Shown here: positions 37,642 through 44,946 of the stretch, one piece after another
Position numbering within the stretch: the stretch's first letter is position 1
Layout of the letters: every line of letters begins with the position of its first letter
Origin: an uncultured Cryomorphaceae bacterium
Lineage (GTDB): Bacteria > Bacteroidota > Bacteroidia > Flavobacteriales > Schleiferiaceae
Reading direction: 5' to 3'
NCBI GenBank assembly: GCA_937120475.1
Contig: CAKZJV010000007.1
Span: 946,068-1,010,067 of the forward strand
Length of the DNA: 64,000 nt
Notes under the pieces: model-generated
Databases searched by the model: none
The model's input: only the letters and a program-made list of their open reading frames with translations
Told to the model about the DNA's origin: nothing
Program-made: the position numbers and the translations under genes

Positions 37642-37849
37642 TGATTGGCTTCGGTATTCATTCTTTATACCTCTTTCTAAACATGCTACCCCTTACATCA
37701 TACACAGAATAAATTGCTATGCTCAACTATTCACAAATCTTCCTCTCTTCTAATCAACCACTTTCAAAAATAGAAAAACCTGATTCCCTCATTTACTCCC
37801 TTTGGAGGCTGCCAATAATTCCTGACTTTTGTTAGGTAAACCAGCCGGG
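37642..37849. other. Non-coding DNA before kinase
   Basis: Together with the broken lipoprotein gene this makes 338 bases without an intact gene. Immediately upstream of the kinase: TTTG at 37801-37804, a 19-base spacer and GACTTTTG at 37824-37831, one base from the Bacteroidota promoter consensus. Confidence 0.45.
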
Positions 37850-39262
37850 ATGAAAAAAGTTACCCCTCAGCAACTCCAGCGCGATTTCGAACCCATTGCC
37901 CATGTTCCGGAGGAGCAACTGCAATATCTTATCGATCACAGCGAGCAATTTACCCTGGAGGAAGATGAATTCCTTTTCCGCAAGGACGAGGCAGCCGACC
38001 GCATGAACCTTATTTTATCCGGGAGACTGCGTATATATACTTTGCAGAAAAATCAAAGCCGTGAAATTGCCTTGCTTGAAAAGGGTGATATTACCGGCCT
38101 GCTCCCCTATTCCCGTTTAAAAACATCTTCAGGCTATGGGCAGGCTTTGGAAAAATGTGAACTGCTCTCCCTGCATCGCAAGGACCTTCCCGAACTCATT
38201 CGTGAAAACTATGAGCTAACCGAGGCACTGGTGCATTTTATGAGTTCAAGAATACGTGAGTTCACCACTTACCAGTTGCAAAATGAAAAAATGATGGCCC
38301 TGGGTAAACTTTCGGCCGGACTGGCGCATGAGCTCAACAACCCCGCCTCGGCTATTGTAAGGAGCAGCAAAGAACTGAAAAGCCATTTAGGACACCTCCC
38401 CAAAAACTTCAAAAAAGTAATATCCATCAAAATGACGGCCGACCAGGTGGATGCGGTAAACGATATGCTTACCGAGCGCCTTGCAGCCAACACTCCGGAA
38501 AAAAAGCTGAGCCTGATGCAACGTCAAAACCTGGAAGACGACCTGGCGGATTGCCTAGAAGAAAAGGGGGTGGACAACCCTTACGAAGTAGCGGAAAACC
38601 TGGTGGACTTTAACTTTCAATGTGCCGATATTGATGCGATTTACAATTATACTTCAGCCGACCATTTTGCCCCGGTAATGAAGTGGGTGAACGACAATCT
38701 TACCACCGAAAGGATGGTGCGCGAAATCGAAGATGCCTCTTCGAGGATCGCCAGTTTGGTGAGTAGCGTAAAAAACTTCACCCACATGGACCGTACACCG
38801 GATAAAATGAAAGCCGACATCCATGAAGGCATTGAAAATACTCTGGTGATGCTCAACCACAAATTAAAGAAGGGTAATGTTAAGGTAGAGCGTAAATTTC
38901 AGGAAGACCTGCCCAAAGCCCCAGTATTGGTAAGTGAGCTCAACCAGGTATGGACCAACCTGATCGATAATGCCATTGACGCAATGGACGGCCGGGAAGA
39001 TGCCGTATTGACCCTTGAAACACAACAAGACCGTGATTTTATCAAGGTGATGATCCGCGACAACGGAACCGGTATTCCCGATGATATGAAAAACCAGATA
39101 TTCGATCCCTTTTTCACCACCAAGGAAATAGGAAAGGGGACCGGGCTGGGGCTGGAAGTGGTGAAAAATATTATAAACAAGCATAATGGCACCATAAAAG
39201 TAGAATCACAACCCGGGCAAACCCAGTTTGAGGTATGCCTGCCCTTGGAAACCAGTGTTTAA
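37850..39262 (+). CDS. Histidine kinase with N-terminal CRP-like cNMP-binding fold
   Basis: 470 residues from the ATG at 37850. A cyclic-nucleotide-binding-type beta-barrel covers about 15-130 (FLFRKDEAADRMNLILSGRL); the FGExAL-R-AA phosphate-binding cassette is absent (GLLPYSRLKTSSG instead), so it may not bind cAMP. Phosphoacceptor His160 in LAHELNNPASA, then a helical insert and the HATPase (N-box NLIDNAIDAM, DNGTGIP, TGLGLEVVKN). No membrane segment. Five bases upstream of the REC-reductase gene, its obvious partner. Confidence 0.9.
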   Translation: MKKVTPQQLQRDFEPIAHVPEEQLQYLIDHSEQFTLEEDEFLFRKDEAADRMNLILSGRLRIYTLQKNQSREIALLEKGDITGLLPYSRLKTSSGYGQALEKCELLSLHRKDLPELIRENYELTEALVHFMSSRIREFTTYQLQNEKMMALGKLSAGLAHELNNPASAIVRSSKELKSHLGHLPKNFKKVISIKMTADQVDAVNDMLTERLAANTPEKKLSLMQRQNLEDDLADCLEEKGVDNPYEVAENLVDFNFQCADIDAIYNYTSADHFAPVMKWVNDNLTTERMVREIEDASSRIASLVSSVKNFTHMDRTPDKMKADIHEGIENTLVMLNHKLKKGNVKVERKFQEDLPKAPVLVSELNQVWTNLIDNAIDAMDGREDAVLTLETQQDRDFIKVMIRDNGTGIPDDMKNQIFDPFFTTKEIGKGTGLGLEVVKNIINKHNGTIKVESQPGQTQFEVCLPLETSV

Positions 39263-39267
39263 AACTC

Positions 39268-40923
39268 ATGAAAAAACCAATCATTTTAGCGGTAGATGAC
39301 GACCAGCAGGTGATAAGGGCCGTAAGCCGTGACCTGCGTAAGCAATACCGCGATGCCTACCGCATCATCGCCACTGATTCCGCCAAAGAAGCGCTGGAAA
39401 GCCTACAGGAAATGAAAAACCAGGGACAGGAAGTAGCCCTTTTTGTTTCGGACCAGCGTATGCCTGAAATGCTGGGCGTGGAATTCCTGGAAAAAGCCAA
39501 AAAGCTGTTTCCCCGCGCCAAAAGAGTTTTATTAACCGCCTACTCCGATACCGATGCCGCCATACAGGCTATTAATGAAGTGCAATTGGATTATTACCTG
39601 ATGAAGCCCTGGGACCCTCCCGAGGAAAAAATGTATCCCGTACTGGATGATCTCCTGGACGAATGGCAGGCGGAGTACATCCCTGATTTTAAAGGCATAA
39701 GACTAATCGGTTACCAGTTTTCACCTAAAAGTCATAAGGTAAAGGATTTTTTGGCCGGCAACCTTTTTCCCTATCGTTGGTACGATATAGAAACCTCGGA
39801 GGAGGCCAAAGAATTAATGGAAAGCAATGGATTGGATGCCAAGGATCTGCCAATAATCTTTTTTGAAGATGGTTCCTATATTCAAAACCCGGAAATTCCG
39901 GCCGTAGCTTCGAAGTTGGGCCTAAATCCTAAAGCTTCCGCTGAAATGTACGATGTAATTATCATTGGGGCCGGCCCTGCGGGACTGGCTGCGGCTGTTT
40001 ATGGTTCCAGTGAAGGCTTAAAAACCTTATTGGTAGAGAGGCGTGCCCCGGGTGGGCAGGCCGGTACCTCATCACGCATTGAAAATTACCTCGGTTTTCC
40101 GAAGGGCCTCAGTGGTTCTGACCTGGCCCGCAGAGCCCTGAGCCAGGCCACCCGTTTGGGAGCGGAAGTATTGACCCCCAGTGAAGTACGGGAAATTAAG
40201 TTCAAAGATCAGTACAAAATTATCGTGTTAACGGACGGTTCGGAGCTAATGGCCAAAAGTCTGGTACTCACTACCGGTGTAGATTATCGTAAGCTGGATA
40301 AAGCTGGTATTGAAAACTTTACCGGTGCCGGTATTTATTACGGGGCGGCTACCACCGAAGCCAATGCCTGCAAAAATGAAGACGTATATGTGGTAGGCGG
40401 GGGTAACTCGGCCGGGCAAGCCGCTATGTACCTCTCGCAATTTGCACGTAGGGTTTTTATCATTATCCGCAGGGAAAACCTGGTGAGTTCCATGTCCACT
40501 TACCTTATTGACCAGATCAATAATACCGATAATATTGAAGTGTTGCCGTGTACCGAGGTCATCGAGGCCCACGGTTCCAATCGTTTGGAACACTTAACCC
40601 TGAAAAGCGAGGAGGAAACACGTAAGGTTGGGGCGGCTGCTCTGTTTATTTTCATCGGTGCGCGGCCTTATACCGATTGGATGAACAATACTTTTTTGCA
40701 AGATGATAAGGGTTTTTTACTCACCGGCCGTGACCTGGCTATTCAAAAAGATTTTAAAAAGAACTGGAAGCTAAAGCGGGAACCCTTTCTGCTGGAAACC
40801 AGTACCCCGGGCATCTTTGCAGCTGGTGATGTACGTTCGGGAGCAATGAACCGCGTAGCTTCAGCCGTAGGCGAAGGGGCTATGAGTATTAGCCTGGTTC
40901 ACAAATACCTTGAAGAAGTTTAA
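39268..40923 (+). CDS. Response regulator fused to thioredoxin-reductase-like flavoenzyme
   Basis: 551 residues from the ATG at 39268. Receiver domain 1-125 with acidic pocket D10-D12, phosphoacceptor Asp62 (SDQRMP), Thr90 and Lys113: complete. Residues about 141-225 look like a glutaredoxin fold whose CxxC is replaced by SPKS (FSPKSHKVKDFL). From 228 a TrxB-type FAD/NAD(P) enzyme: GAGPAG (234-239), GGQAGTSSRIENYLGFP, NADPH motif VVGGGNSAGQAA, and FAAGDVRSG. The redox CxxC of thioredoxin reductase is missing (GIYYGAATTEANACK), so it is not a classical disulfide reductase. Named 'fused response regulator/thioredoxin-disulfide reductase' in databases; real substrate unknown. Confidence 0.9.
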   Translation: MKKPIILAVDDDQQVIRAVSRDLRKQYRDAYRIIATDSAKEALESLQEMKNQGQEVALFVSDQRMPEMLGVEFLEKAKKLFPRAKRVLLTAYSDTDAAIQAINEVQLDYYLMKPWDPPEEKMYPVLDDLLDEWQAEYIPDFKGIRLIGYQFSPKSHKVKDFLAGNLFPYRWYDIETSEEAKELMESNGLDAKDLPIIFFEDGSYIQNPEIPAVASKLGLNPKASAEMYDVIIIGAGPAGLAAAVYGSSEGLKTLLVERRAPGGQAGTSSRIENYLGFPKGLSGSDLARRALSQATRLGAEVLTPSEVREIKFKDQYKIIVLTDGSELMAKSLVLTTGVDYRKLDKAGIENFTGAGIYYGAATTEANACKNEDVYVVGGGNSAGQAAMYLSQFARRVFIIIRRENLVSSMSTYLIDQINNTDNIEVLPCTEVIEAHGSNRLEHLTLKSEEETRKVGAAALFIFIGARPYTDWMNNTFLQDDKGFLLTGRDLAIQKDFKKNWKLKREPFLLETSTPGIFAAGDVRSGAMNRVASAVGEGAMSISLVHKYLEEV

Positions 40924-40958
40924 CTTAGCTCAACCGGGATATAAGACAAGCTTAAAGC

Positions 40959-41891
40959 ATGATTATTTACAAAAGCAACAAAAACTGGTGGGGCGACATC
41001 AGTCATTTATACCGTAGCTGGACCATGACCAGGGTGGTACGTGCCGTGCTGCTTATCGGGTTGTACACCACCGCTCTCTGCGTATTACAGATCCACTTTC
41101 TTGAAGATACCATTGAGATGAACCTGGGACCACAGGTATTCAGCCTGCTGGGGGTGGTGCTCAGTATTTTGTTGGTTTTCCGTACCAATACCGCTTATGA
41201 CCGCTGGTGGGAAGGCCGCAAACAATGGGGAGCCCTGGTGAACCATTGTCGTAACCTGGCCATAACGGCTGCAGCTACTTTTCCGGCCGATTATAAAAAG
41301 GAGAAACACCAGATGGCCGTTTACATTTCCAACTTTTGCATTGCCCTTAAGGAGCACTTAAGGGAAGGCACCCGGCTGGATGAGCTTATTTCAGTAAGTG
41401 AAGAGGACATGGCGGTGTACAAAACCAAAGCACACGTTCCCAATCACATTTCCCTGCAAATTCATTATATGGTAGAGCGTTTTCACCGCGAAAGAATCAT
41501 TACCCCGGAAGACCACCGGAACTTTAAGCCCCAATTACAGGCTCTATTGGATATTTTGGGAGCCTGCGAGCGGATCAAAAAGACACCTATCCCCTTTTCC
41601 TACAATGTTTATTTGAAAATATTTATCACGGCCTACGGACTTTTACTGCCATTGGCTATGATCCCGCAATTTGACTATTACGCTATTCCCATTGTGATGT
41701 TTGTATTTTTTGCCTTTATAGGTGTAGAGTTGATGGCCGGAGAAATTGAAGATCCCTTTGGATTGGATTGCAATGACCTGCCCACCGGGGACATAGCCCA
41801 TAACATTAAAAACAATGTTTTTGAAATATTGGACGAACGTTCGGGCCTGGAACATAAGGTAGAGCGTGAGGAATATGCGAAGGTTTTCTAA
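40959..41891 (+). CDS. Bestrophin family channel-like membrane protein
   Basis: 310 residues. Carries the diagnostic block LVFRTNTAYDRWWEGRKQWG after the first two membrane segments, and FGLDCNDLPTGDIAHNI near the end (bestrophin/UPF0187). Bacterial members form pentameric ion channels (KpBest conducts sodium). Thirty-five bases after the REC-reductase gene, same strand, probably the third gene of that operon, which may link ion flux to the two-component pair. Confidence 0.9.
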   Translation: MIIYKSNKNWWGDISHLYRSWTMTRVVRAVLLIGLYTTALCVLQIHFLEDTIEMNLGPQVFSLLGVVLSILLVFRTNTAYDRWWEGRKQWGALVNHCRNLAITAAATFPADYKKEKHQMAVYISNFCIALKEHLREGTRLDELISVSEEDMAVYKTKAHVPNHISLQIHYMVERFHRERIITPEDHRNFKPQLQALLDILGACERIKKTPIPFSYNVYLKIFITAYGLLLPLAMIPQFDYYAIPIVMFVFFAFIGVELMAGEIEDPFGLDCNDLPTGDIAHNIKNNVFEILDERSGLEHKVEREEYAKVF

Positions 41892-41983: not shown

Positions 41984-43132
41984 GTGACACTACACGACAG
42001 ATTTCATACCGTACGCAACCACACCGAAAAATTAATGCAGCCCCTCAGTGTCGAGGATCACTTGGCTCAGCCCATAGTGGATGTTAGTCCCCCAAAGTGG
42101 CACCTCGGGCATACCACCTGGTTTTTTGAAACTTTCATCCTGAAAAAATACCACCAGGGCTACCAGGAATTCGACCCTACTTTCAACTTTCTTTTTAACT
42201 CTTATTACGAAACGGTGGGTAAGCGATTGTTGCGCGACCAGAGAGGCAACATGACCCGTCCGCCCCTGGAAAAGGTGTATCAATACCGGGCTTATGTTAA
42301 CCAACAAATGGATGTTTACCTGGCCGGTACACCCCAGACAGAAGCCCTGGAATTATTGGAATTGGGCTTGAACCACGAGCAACAGCACCAGGAACTTTTC
42401 CTTACCGACTTTAAATATATATTAGGTGTACAGGCCTTTCATCCGGTTTACAATAAAAGCTTCCGTGAAAGTACCATCGAAGATTGGGAACAGGAATGGG
42501 TGGTGGTACCCGAGGGGCGTTACGATATTGGTTTTGAGGGCCAAGGCTTTAGTTTTGATAATGAAGGGTCCCGGCACCAGGTTTTTCTCCCGGCTTTTGA
42601 GATTAGCAACAAGTTGGTAACCAATGGTGAGTACCTGGAGTTTATGCAAGACGGAGCTTACCAAAATTTTGAATACTGGCACTCCGAAGGTTGGGCCTGG
42701 GTGCAGGAACATAATGTTAATAGCCCCCTGTACTGGGAACAACAGGAAGACGGCTGGAAACGCTTTAGTCTGGCAGGCTTGGAGGCGATAAATCCCGATG
42801 AGCCTCTGGCGCATATTTCCTATTATGAAGCTTATGCCTTTGCCGAGTGGAAGGGGCTTCGCCTGCCTACTGAACAAGAGTGGGAAGCCGCCAGCAATAA
42901 GTTCAATTGGGGGCAGCGTTGGGAATGGACCAACTCGGCCTACCTGGCTTATCCGGGCTTTAATAAGGCCGAGGGTGCCGTTGGCGAATACAATGGTAAA
43001 TTTATGGTCAGCCAAATGGTACTTCGCGGTGCTTCAATAGCTACTCCCGAAGGACATAGCCGCAATACCTACCGCAACTTTTTTCACCCGCAACTGCGCT
43101 GGCAATTTACCGGCCTGCGCTTGGCGAGGTAA
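41984..43132 (+). CDS. egtB: Ergothioneine biosynthesis protein EgtB
   Basis: 382 residues from a GTG at 41984. DinB-like N-terminal domain with iron ligands His40/His43 (KWHLGHTTW) and His131/His135 (NHEQQHQE), then a formylglycine-generating-enzyme-type C-terminal domain (about 165-380, WEWTNSAYLAYPGF, RNTYRNFFHP). Catalyses O2-dependent C-S bond formation between trimethylhistidine (hercynine) and a thiol donor. With egtD ten bases downstream; no egtC homologue follows, so the sulfur donor (cysteine or gamma-glutamylcysteine) is uncertain. Confidence 0.92.
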   Translation: MTLHDRFHTVRNHTEKLMQPLSVEDHLAQPIVDVSPPKWHLGHTTWFFETFILKKYHQGYQEFDPTFNFLFNSYYETVGKRLLRDQRGNMTRPPLEKVYQYRAYVNQQMDVYLAGTPQTEALELLELGLNHEQQHQELFLTDFKYILGVQAFHPVYNKSFRESTIEDWEQEWVVVPEGRYDIGFEGQGFSFDNEGSRHQVFLPAFEISNKLVTNGEYLEFMQDGAYQNFEYWHSEGWAWVQEHNVNSPLYWEQQEDGWKRFSLAGLEAINPDEPLAHISYYEAYAFAEWKGLRLPTEQEWEAASNKFNWGQRWEWTNSAYLAYPGFNKAEGAVGEYNGKFMVSQMVLRGASIATPEGHSRNTYRNFFHPQLRWQFTGLRLAR

Positions 43133-43142
43133 AACCATACTC

Positions 43143-44108
43143 ATGAAAACTACTACCGAAAACACCTTTAAAGCTCAATTTGCCCGGGATGTGGATCTCG
43201 GTCTGAGTTCGGAACCCAAATTTTTACCCTCCCGCTATTTTTACGATGCTAAAGGAGATAAGCTTTTCCAGCAGATTATGCGAATGCCGGAATACTACCT
43301 TACGGATTGTGAGTACGAGATTTTTGACCGCCAGAAGGCCGATATCCTCCGAGCCATTTACAACGGTCAAAAGTTTAACCTGGTGGAATTAGGAGCTGGT
43401 GACGGTTATAAAACCAAGCTTTTGCTTGATCACTTTCTGCAAAATGAAGTCGATTTTGAATACGTTCCGGTTGACATATCCAAGGATGTATTGCAAGAGT
43501 TAAAAGGCAGTTTACAAAAACAGTTCCCAGCCCTTAAAGTCAGCCCTTTAAATTATGAATACTTTGAAGCGTTGGAGCGGCTCAACGATTTGGACAAAGC
43601 GCCCAAGGTAATCTTGTTTTTAGGCAGTAACATCGGGAACTTTACGCCTGAAAGGGCCCGTACTTTTTTCGATAAGCTCAATACAACCATACAAAAGGGC
43701 GACTTGTTATTATGCGGAATCGATCTTAAAAAAGATCCGCGCACCATACTGGCAGCGTACAACGATCCTACCGGAATTACTAAAGCCTTTAACCTGAATC
43801 TTTTAACCCGTATTAACCGGGAATTAGGAGGTAATTTTAAAGTGGAAAACTTTAACCATTACCCTACTTACGACCCTTTTAGCGGGGAAGCTCGCAGTTA
43901 TGTAATGAGCACCGTAGATCAGGAGGTGTATATCGAAGCTTTGGATAAATCCTTCCGCTTTACCCACTCGGAACCCATTCATACCGAAATTTCACGCAAG
44001 TACAGCCTGGCCGAAATTGAAAAACTGGCGCAAAACTCCGGTTTTGAATGGCTCCACCACTTTACGGATAGCAAAGGCTATTTTGTGGATACCCTCTGGA
44101 AAAAGTAG
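43143..44108 (+). CDS. egtD: L-histidine N-alpha-methyltransferase EgtD
   Basis: 321 residues, standard length. SAM-binding motif VELGAGDGYKT, conserved FLGSNIGNF and the YNDPTGIT region of EgtD. It trimethylates histidine to hercynine, the substrate of EgtB encoded immediately upstream. The pair forms a minimal ergothioneine operon next to the redox-signalling genes. Confidence 0.93.
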   Translation: MKTTTENTFKAQFARDVDLGLSSEPKFLPSRYFYDAKGDKLFQQIMRMPEYYLTDCEYEIFDRQKADILRAIYNGQKFNLVELGAGDGYKTKLLLDHFLQNEVDFEYVPVDISKDVLQELKGSLQKQFPALKVSPLNYEYFEALERLNDLDKAPKVILFLGSNIGNFTPERARTFFDKLNTTIQKGDLLLCGIDLKKDPRTILAAYNDPTGITKAFNLNLLTRINRELGGNFKVENFNHYPTYDPFSGEARSYVMSTVDQEVYIEALDKSFRFTHSEPIHTEISRKYSLAEIEKLAQNSGFEWLHHFTDSKGYFVDTLWKK

Positions 44109-44163: not shown

Positions 44164-44946
44164 ATGACGGAAAAACCATTGATCTATTTCATGCACATCC
44201 CTAAAACCGCGGGGATGACCATGCAAACGCTGGCACGCAGGCATTACAAAAAGCCGGGCGAGCTGGAATTGATCTACACCCAACAAGCCAACCTCGATGG
44301 TTTTGACGACCGTCAGGAACTGGAAATGGTAATGGGCCATTTTCGCTTCGGATACCACCGCTTCAGCTCAAGGGAGCCGCGTTATTTTGCTTTTTTGCGT
44401 GAACCGATAAGCCACGTAATATCCCATTACCAGTACACTTTTGACCGTCCTGAAAAATTTGAGTTTTTACCAGATGTAAATAACCTTTTGGAGTTTGCAC
44501 GCTGCCCCTACGGCTACAACCTGCAAACACGGTTTATATCCGGTATCGAAAATATAGAGGGGCGCGAAAAAGAAGTACTGCAAAAAGCCAAGGAAAACCT
44601 GCTTCGCCATGTAGAGGTACTGGGTTTAACGGAACGTTTTGACGAATCACTATTGATGATGCGCCAACCCCTCAACTGGAACTTGGTGTATTATCAAAAA
44701 CGCAATGAAGGTAAAGCGCGTAAAAAATTCAAACCCAGTGAGGCCGAGTTGGACGAGCTCCGGTCTATTATACGCTATGATATAGAACTTTACGAATTTG
44801 GAAAGCAGTTATTTGAAAACCAAGTTGATAAGCACCCCGCATTAAAAGAAAAGGTACGGCAATTCCAAACGGTCAATTATTGGTTTTGGAAGCTGAACCC
44901 CACCTACACGCGTCTTAAGGTCGCTTTGGGCCTGGCGAAGAGCTAA
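44164..44946 (+). CDS. Sulfotransferase family 2 protein
   Basis: 260 residues. Begins with the 5'-PSB loop MHIPKTAGMTMQTL and continues with FAFLREPISHVISHY (3'-PB loop), as in carbohydrate/heparan-type sulfotransferases that use PAPS. Substrate unknown. It overlaps the convergent symporter by 32 bases tail to tail. Possible end of the egtBD operon (55-base gap). Confidence 0.85.
   Translation: MTEKPLIYFMHIPKTAGMTMQTLARRHYKKPGELELIYTQQANLDGFDDRQELEMVMGHFRFGYHRFSSREPRYFAFLREPISHVISHYQYTFDRPEKFEFLPDVNNLLEFARCPYGYNLQTRFISGIENIEGREKEVLQKAKENLLRHVEVLGLTERFDESLLMMRQPLNWNLVYYQKRNEGKARKKFKPSEAELDELRSIIRYDIELYEFGKQLFENQVDKHPALKEKVRQFQTVNYWFWKLNPTYTRLKVALGLAKS

Follow-up and report, generated by a model that had tools for sequence, protein, structure and literature searches.

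A thioredoxin reductase-like response regulator without CxxC motifs and its CRP-like histidine kinase: probably a switchable redox defence enzyme

What can a two-component system do when its response regulator ends in an enzyme resembling thioredoxin reductase, from which the cysteines used by thioredoxin reductase are gone? The question is raised by a histidine kinase and a response regulator-flavoenzyme fusion encoded side by side in a stretch of 64,000 nucleotides (the window) from an uncultured Cryomorphaceae bacterium (GCA_937120475.1, contig CAKZJV010000007.1, positions 946,068-1,010,067 of the forward strand). By homology the enzyme scores best as a thioredoxin reductase, yet it is unable to carry out that chemistry by the known route. 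Instead of a thioredoxin reductase, the pair probably provides a redox defence enzyme that can be switched. The more specific reading preferred here, at a probability of roughly 0.4, is an NAD(P)H flavin reductase, switched by phosphorylation, whose substrates would be small electrophiles (above all quinones) and which would act together with thiol synthesis and ion flux.

The fusion protein consists of a receiver domain (REC, residues ~15-140), a glutaredoxin-like domain (~150-235) and an FAD- and NAD(P)H-binding enzyme of the thioredoxin reductase (TrxR) type (237-562). Residues are counted from the start of the open reading frame (ORF) at 39235, although the most likely start is the ATG at 39268, where most aligned homologues begin. 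AATT (371-374) aligns with the CAIC of TrxB from the same genome, and the whole CxxC region has been replaced by the motif YYGA..TE (YYGAATTE in the window). A reductase CxxC is found in none of 125 distinct family members (from the 129 family proteins of loci L038-L180 plus the window), and the replacement is nearly invariant, with Y368 in 124, Y369 in 125, G370 in 123 and E375 in 123. At six loci that were lost to ORF picking, six-frame translation recovers YYGA in five, L169 is not matched by the pattern, and CxxC is present in none. The FAD/Rossmann residues G245, G247, G274, G388 and D532 are each conserved in 125/125, and an insert of ~19 residues, missing from actinobacterial glutaredoxin-TrxR proteins, carries W511 (123/125) and R515 (125/125). 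Because the CxxC is absent from all 125 members while the FAD/Rossmann motifs are kept and new positions have become fixed, the alignments point to a conserved enzyme and not a wreck, and the loss is seen to be a trait of the family, not local decay. Decay of a normal thioredoxin reductase is rejected on this conservation and on the separate TrxB with CAIC. A degenerate, functionless thioredoxin reductase, which the loss of both CxxC motifs might suggest, is scarcely credible, since 125 members share a replacement motif that has become fixed and keep their cofactor motifs intact, and relatives occur in several phyla.

The other motif is missing from the glutaredoxin-like domain, where SPKS (163-166) replaces CPxC, leaving neither a CxxC nor a CxxS active site. 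Here too the replacement is conserved (S163 in 117, S166 in 113 and the following H167 in 117 of the 125, giving SPxSH). In an hhalign comparison, the domain as found in the window's family (113 sequences) matches 11 glutaredoxin domains, 10 of them with CxxC, with a probability of 99.7 and an E value of 1e-26, which supports its homology to glutaredoxin-type domains. A preliminary description of this DNA had noted both losses, and both hold across the family. Its label "cysteine-less" is too strong: both CxxC motifs are gone, but C379 is kept in 94/125, and the structure model puts it at the end of a helix that starts near the former CxxC site. The NADPH 2'-phosphate motif HRRxxxR is mostly lost, with Ile or Val at the first position in 122/125; R412 is present in 124/125, the next Arg in 33, and Arg is not among the six commonest residues at 417. 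The genome's CxxC-bearing TrxB also departs from this motif (VRKDHFK), making the criterion a soft one; the weakened motif nevertheless suggests that NADH may serve as well. The score against the thioredoxin reductase equivalog TIGR01292 is 229.5 bits, below the cut-off of 343.45.

A TrxR fold without CxxC is also what characterizes the TrxR-like ferredoxin/flavodoxin reductases (FNR), and known enzymes of this kind hand electrons to protein partners (PMC8564101). The window's enzyme might likewise pass electrons to a ferredoxin, a flavodoxin or another redox protein. However, no ferredoxin or flavodoxin was recognised among the recurring neighbour clusters (inspected by eye, some scanned with Pfam), and in the best PDB alignment the protein stops where the TrxR chain stops, with no added FNR tail seen there; such a role is thus unlikely. 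An AlphaFold model of the fusion protein (mean pLDDT 87.6, pTM 0.74) is of low confidence in two places, residues 1-11 and, across the invariant IENYLGFP stretch, residues 280-290. In the fold search, whose rows span residues 235-562 and are silent on the REC and glutaredoxin-like part, the reductase part fits TrxR in its flavin-reducing state (5mh4: Z 32.3, root mean square deviation 2.0, 32% identity) better than in its flavin-oxidising state (5mjk: Z 28.3, root mean square deviation 7.7). In this one model, the flavin-reducing shape would fit an enzyme that need not carry a CxxC to its flavin.

The receiver, in contrast to the CxxC motifs, is intact, as the preliminary description had stated. 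It matches PF00072 with 57.6 bits (cut-off 30.2) and retains D22, D23, D73, T101 and K124; D73 is Asp in every one of the 121 members (of 125) with that column, while 119 members have Lys at position 124 and 2 have Arg. A domain profile scan found no DNA-binding domain in the response regulator. Because such a domain is missing, the receiver and the FAD/NAD(P)H motifs are intact and the CxxC is lost family-wide, a non-thiol flavoenzyme controlled by phosphorylation is the natural reading. The earlier claim that phosphorylation would control a flavin/NAD(P)H enzyme and not DNA binding thus stands as regards the domains, and the phospho-control itself is a plausible reading of them.

The kinase ORF is open from a TTG at 37829, from which its residues are counted, and the ATG at 37850 is the likelier start. 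Its HisKA match is below cut-off (21.5 bits against 26.9). The phospho-accepting H167 of the kinase lies within LAHELNNP; this residue, N377 and the glycine-box positions are conserved in at least 90% of 107 homologues selected on score and length. The Glu and Arg of the phosphate-binding cassette, typical of cAMP-binding CRP proteins, are missing from the CRP-like domain of the window's kinase, which bears out the earlier description of a CRP-like sensor without the cAMP cassette. The kinases have instead a motif G.LP[FY]SR, in which G90 and P93 are conserved in at least 90% of the same 107. No membrane segment is seen in the kinase by eye.

Gene linkage was compared in five locus sets: a sample of the phylum (40 loci), the window's family (9), a genome_contigs set from Bacteroidota and near groups (45), other phyla (35) and actinobacteria (12). 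Four loci occur twice (L047/L111, L052/L118, L062/L129, L063/L135). In these sets, respectively, 38/40, 9/9, 41/45, 24/35 and 12/12 loci have a CRP-like kinase no more than 4 kb from the enzyme (124/141 with duplicates), or 121 of 137 full-length comparison loci when duplicates are removed and the window is left aside; several of the loci without a nearby kinase lie on short contigs. By the preliminary description's own account, it would be refuted by close homologues that keep the CxxC and stand in independent gene neighbourhoods. With CxxC in 0/125 and the kinase nearby in 121/137, the outcome is in its favour. Conserved across several bacterial phyla, the two genes together place a metabolic flavoenzyme under apparent phosphorelay control. 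At three loci (L218, L219 and L220), two or three CRP-like kinase genes stand in tandem behind one enzyme gene, as if several signals fed into one output. The window's genome also encodes a second receiver (L003, G000:C7:68080-68412), 43% identical to the REC of the flavoenzyme, which could compete for the kinase or share it.

Relatives of the enzyme occur in records labelled Bacteroidota, cyanobacteria, Chloroflexi, Acidobacteria, Rubrobacteraceae, Meiothermus and Caballeronia. Of 246 genomes sampled from the phylum to which the Rubrobacteraceae-labelled L143 belongs, 71 contain matches, which are of several builds and include ordinary TrxB. Twelve places encoding actinobacterial glutaredoxin-TrxR proteins were recognised, of which 11, without REC, were analysed (L236-L246; the partial G439 was left out). 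These have the reductase CxxC in 11/11 and the glutaredoxin CxxC in 10/11; the glutaredoxin part of L245 has CPDS. A maximum likelihood tree was built from 80 of 169 aligned rows, namely the remote rows, the window, the TrxB of its genome and 30 random rows of the main family. The CxxC-less enzymes form one clade (62 rows, support 100/100, stem length 1.04), the CxxC-bearing glutaredoxin-TrxRs another (11 rows, 100/99), and TrxB a third (100/96). Support within the large remainder of the CxxC-less clade is uneven, with 94/44 at its base. As the three types fall into separate groups, both CxxC motifs were most likely lost once, the presumed direction of change being that given by midpoint rooting.

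The input domain differs within the CxxC-less clade. REC is present in most rows, L078-L080 have no input domain, and in a branch of eight rows (100/98) a CRP-like domain is fused in cis to the enzyme, with PF00027 in all five rows scanned (L081, L186, L188, L234 and L235). These direct fusions are a one-protein version of the same control. Because the same kind of CRP-like input is connected to the enzyme by way of a kinase in one branch and as a fused domain in another, control of the enzyme would seem to be the purpose of the arrangement. In four other CxxC-less enzymes (L230, L231, L232 and L233), the N-terminus is receiver-like or unassigned and the phospho-acceptor region looks degenerate.

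In the window, the pair opens a run of five genes on one strand:

37850..39262, + strand: histidine kinase with CRP-like cNMP_binding (PF00027, 6.8e-13), HisKA (2.4e-4) and HATPase_c (6.1e-25) domains
39268..40923, + strand: response regulator-flavoenzyme fusion (PF00072, 1.6e-15; PF07992, 1.1e-33)
40959..41891, + strand: bestrophin of the bacterial/fungal type (PF25539, 5.5e-73; 246.4 bits, cut-off 27)
41984..43132, + strand: EgtB, ergothioneine biosynthesis (TIGR03440, 525.5 bits, cut-off 360)
43143..44108, + strand: EgtD, histidine N-alpha-methyltransferase of ergothioneine synthesis (TIGR03438, 310.9 bits, cut-off 290.9; PF10017, 1.4e-105)

The preliminary description had the first three genes and their coordinates right but ended the run at 41891, overlooking EgtB and EgtD, which continue on the same strand. 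Gaps between successive genes are 5, 35, 92 and 10 bases, and strand, spacing and conserved order suggest a single transcript. A promoter scan was no better than shuffles (11 found, shuffle mean 10.6) and a terminator scan was slightly above them (16, mean 11.3, standard deviation 4.0); neither was used. A scan for inverted repeats gave nothing notable. Downstream of EgtD is a sulfotransferase-like gene (44164-44946; PF06990, 28 bits, cut-off 27), with a homologue at only L092 among the nine other loci of the window's family.

The bestrophin is probably an ion channel; it matches the PDB bestrophin homologue 6iv3 (E 2.6e-30). The linkage from which coupling to ion flux was earlier suspected recurs within the window's family, where a bestrophin is within 4 kb of the enzyme in 7/9 loci, but elsewhere the figure is 2/45 (L103 and L109) in the genome_contigs set and 0/40, 0/35 and 0/12 in the phylum sample, other phyla and actinobacteria. 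One of the seven, at L093 (genome G316), is a fragment, ~3 kb from the enzyme where the contig ends. The same genome has a further bestrophin fragment on a different contig, close to EgtD, which suggests that the assembly splits the run. As a general partner of the enzyme, bestrophin is rejected, since it occurs near the enzyme chiefly in this family.

EgtB/EgtD are within 4 kb of the enzyme at 8/9 other loci of the window's family and are near it in other gene orders at L060, L101, L102, L120 and L107, at the last of these on the opposite strand. EgtD is present in 36/41 phylum-sample genomes with the full-length enzyme and 56/255 without (Fisher p 4e-16), and in the window's family in 10/10 with and 17/78 without (Fisher p 2e-6); both tests ignore phylogeny and completeness, and weak EgtD matches were excluded beforehand (6/98 genomes in the phylum sample, 7/34 in the family). 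The EgtD baseline in the family is also lowered in that many of its enzyme-less genomes are small, and 56/88 reach 90% completeness with contamination of 5% or less. An aerobic lifestyle is unlikely to be the whole cause of the co-occurrence, given that COX1 is over cut-off in 283/296 genomes, phylogeny being uncorrected here as well. These associations would suit an enzyme that recycles oxidised ergothioneine or a related thiol, docked through the serine-bearing glutaredoxin-like domain. However, EgtD is missing from 5/41 enzyme-bearing genomes of the phylum sample, Egt genes are within 4 kb at 0/12 actinobacterial and 0/35 other-phyla loci, and disulfide reduction without cysteines lacks a clear chemistry, so that recycling is distinctly improbable. 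A flavin freed of its disulfide can also react with oxygen, and the phylum sample is, by the COX1 count, nearly all oxidase-bearing. The enzyme might therefore be an NAD(P)H oxidase that, for signalling or in response to stress, produces peroxide or removes oxygen; a peroxide source next to thiol-antioxidant genes would be odd, however, and this role too has a low probability.

Outside the window's family, the enzyme is more commonly accompanied, apart from the kinase, by a UBP zinc finger. The family cut-off is passed at 31 places in 296 genomes of the phylum, and at 22 of these a gene for the CxxC-less enzyme is no more than 6 kb away. Of the 30 zinc-finger genomes, 27 also have that enzyme, which is present in 45/296 overall. 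The zinc finger directly adjoins the enzyme in Dyadobacter, Chitinophaga, Mucilaginibacter, Adhaeribacter, Fulvivirga, Aquimarina and Pelagihabitans loci, and is nearby at 3/35 other-phyla and 3/12 actinobacterial loci. Within 4 kb, the phylum sample has the zinc finger at 19/40 loci, a DsbA-like gene at 11/40, an esterase at 11/40 and a Kef/RosB-type antiporter at 20/40 (1/45 in the genome_contigs set). NCBIfam places this antiporter closest to YbaL and KefC, far below their cut-offs. At two loci (L073:3953-5980 and L076:7644-9677), an antiporter with a C-terminal UBP zinc finger lies beside the CxxC-less enzyme. The zinc-finger and antiporter links offer a testable route from redox state to ion flux. 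VOC dioxygenase-like genes are found near the esterase in antiporter clusters (L041:12223-13188 and L040:11562-12491); together with the esterase they may point to quinone breakdown.

Antiporter, zinc finger and bestrophin neighbours nearly always share the strand of the enzyme. This repeated linkage, with the fusion of zinc finger to antiporter, could also mean that the protein is regulatory and not catalytic, its FAD/NAD(P)H unit sensing redox state or NAD(P)H and its phosphorylated form binding and gating the neighbouring transporter or the UBP zinc finger; KefF, similarly, binds KefC with zinc at the interface (PMC10224563). However, many loci have no such ion-transport genes (antiporter 0/12 actinobacterial, 0/35 other-phyla), and the fixed positions of the replaced motif, with W511 and R515 of the insert, would equally suit a substrate pocket; a purely regulatory role thus appears rather doubtful. 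A direct output in ion balance, in which the phosphorylated flavoenzyme would act as a redox-reading subunit that opens the channel or antiporter while starting electrophile reduction, with no transcription involved, is a little more doubtful.

The preferred reading of a switched electrophile reductase runs as follows. A small ligand would engage the CRP-like domain, upon which the kinase would phosphorylate D73. Phosphorylated D73 would then switch the enzyme, perhaps through a movement that brings the glutaredoxin-like linker to lie over either the flavin or the NAD(P)H domain. From NAD(P)H, electrons would pass to FAD and then directly, without cysteines, to a small acceptor able to reach the flavin, most likely a quinone or another electrophile. 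Ergothioneine made by the neighbouring gene products would form a scavenging arm, and the bestrophin here, or the Kef/RosB-type antiporter and UBP zinc finger elsewhere, would let the ion balance change quickly, as with KefF-KefC. The output of the two-component pair would thus be enzyme activity, not transcription. To the domains, the motif replacement, the single clade and the linkage, all firmly read from the sequences, this scheme adds phosphotransfer, a change of activity, a substrate and ion coupling, which we infer.

Several observations weigh against this scheme. Quinones are proposed as substrate by analogy of the neighbourhood only: the dioxygenase-like gene recurs further out (11/46 clustered loci) and is within 4 kb at only 1/40, it is over no model's cut-off, and the MhqD match of the esterase is weak (22.1 bits against a cut-off of 325 for the L038 copy). 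C379 leaves one-cysteine chemistry possible, and the flavin-reducing conformation could be a preference of AlphaFold. The partners proposed for the scavenging arm and for ion flux are local, neither bestrophin, Egt genes nor antiporter being found within 4 kb at any other-phyla or actinobacterial locus, and bestrophin at none of the phylum sample. Of the 22 zinc-finger linkages, 15 come from one family, f24, and are not independent, as do most antiporter linkages; f24 is Balneola-like, in that L111, labelled Balneola, is the same contig as its member L047. The zinc finger occurs without the enzyme in three genomes, and at six places it lies apart from it in a genome that has both. The window's genome has no match to the UBP zinc finger and only a distant one to the antiporter (E 9.1e-13, 29% identity). 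KefF, moreover, is a small FMN protein without a receiver, and its flavodoxin-like fold differs from the Pyr_redox_2/TrxR fold here, so that the comparison is one of analogy, with no kinship claimed.

In the open-access collection searched, no paper was found on the CxxC loss, the kinase pairing, the zinc-finger/antiporter link or the Egt-bestrophin run, nor on the mechanism of the window's enzyme family; subscription journals lay outside the search. The joining of REC to thioredoxin reductase is itself already known and not new here: response regulators with the same two named domains as the window's protein are in print as a "Mycobacterium-like combination" (PMC5847659). The section of that paper dealing with the architecture leaves aside CxxC loss, a glutaredoxin-like domain, a CRP-like kinase and the neighbourhood (PMC5847659).

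With low-Mr TrxB, the window's enzyme shares the fold and the FAD and NAD(P)H Rossmann motifs; it differs in the missing CxxC, the mostly lost HRRxxxR, the ~19-residue insert and the added REC and glutaredoxin-like domains. AhpF is similar in having a thioredoxin-fold part ahead of a TrxR-type enzyme. It has CxxC in both parts, however, whereas the window's protein has lost both, and its N-terminal part is one glutaredoxin-like domain plus the receiver. TrxR-fold enzymes that lack CxxC and reduce other partners are established, and FNR2, Bdr and IruO share this feature with the window's enzyme (PMC8564101). In the latter no C-terminal extension of the FNR kind, which would lie over the flavin of the other subunit, is visible from the alignment, and in a PDB search it is nearer to TrxB (best 157.2 bits) than to FNR-labelled chains (at most 59.4 bits). 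As for electrophile defence, a comparable set of genes, with osmC, dsbA, trx, ahpD, oye, kefF and kefC among others, makes a pseudomonad resistant to allicin, although insertion in kefF had no visible effect there (PMC7119367). In the KefF-KefC system as described in the relevant part of PMC10224563, KefF is a flavin quinone reductase needed for full activation of KefC, and zinc is coordinated at the interface of the two. What it has in common with the loci considered here is the gene for a soluble flavin oxidoreductase next to that for a CPA2 ion transporter, the setting of electrophile defence and the involvement of zinc (PMC10224563).

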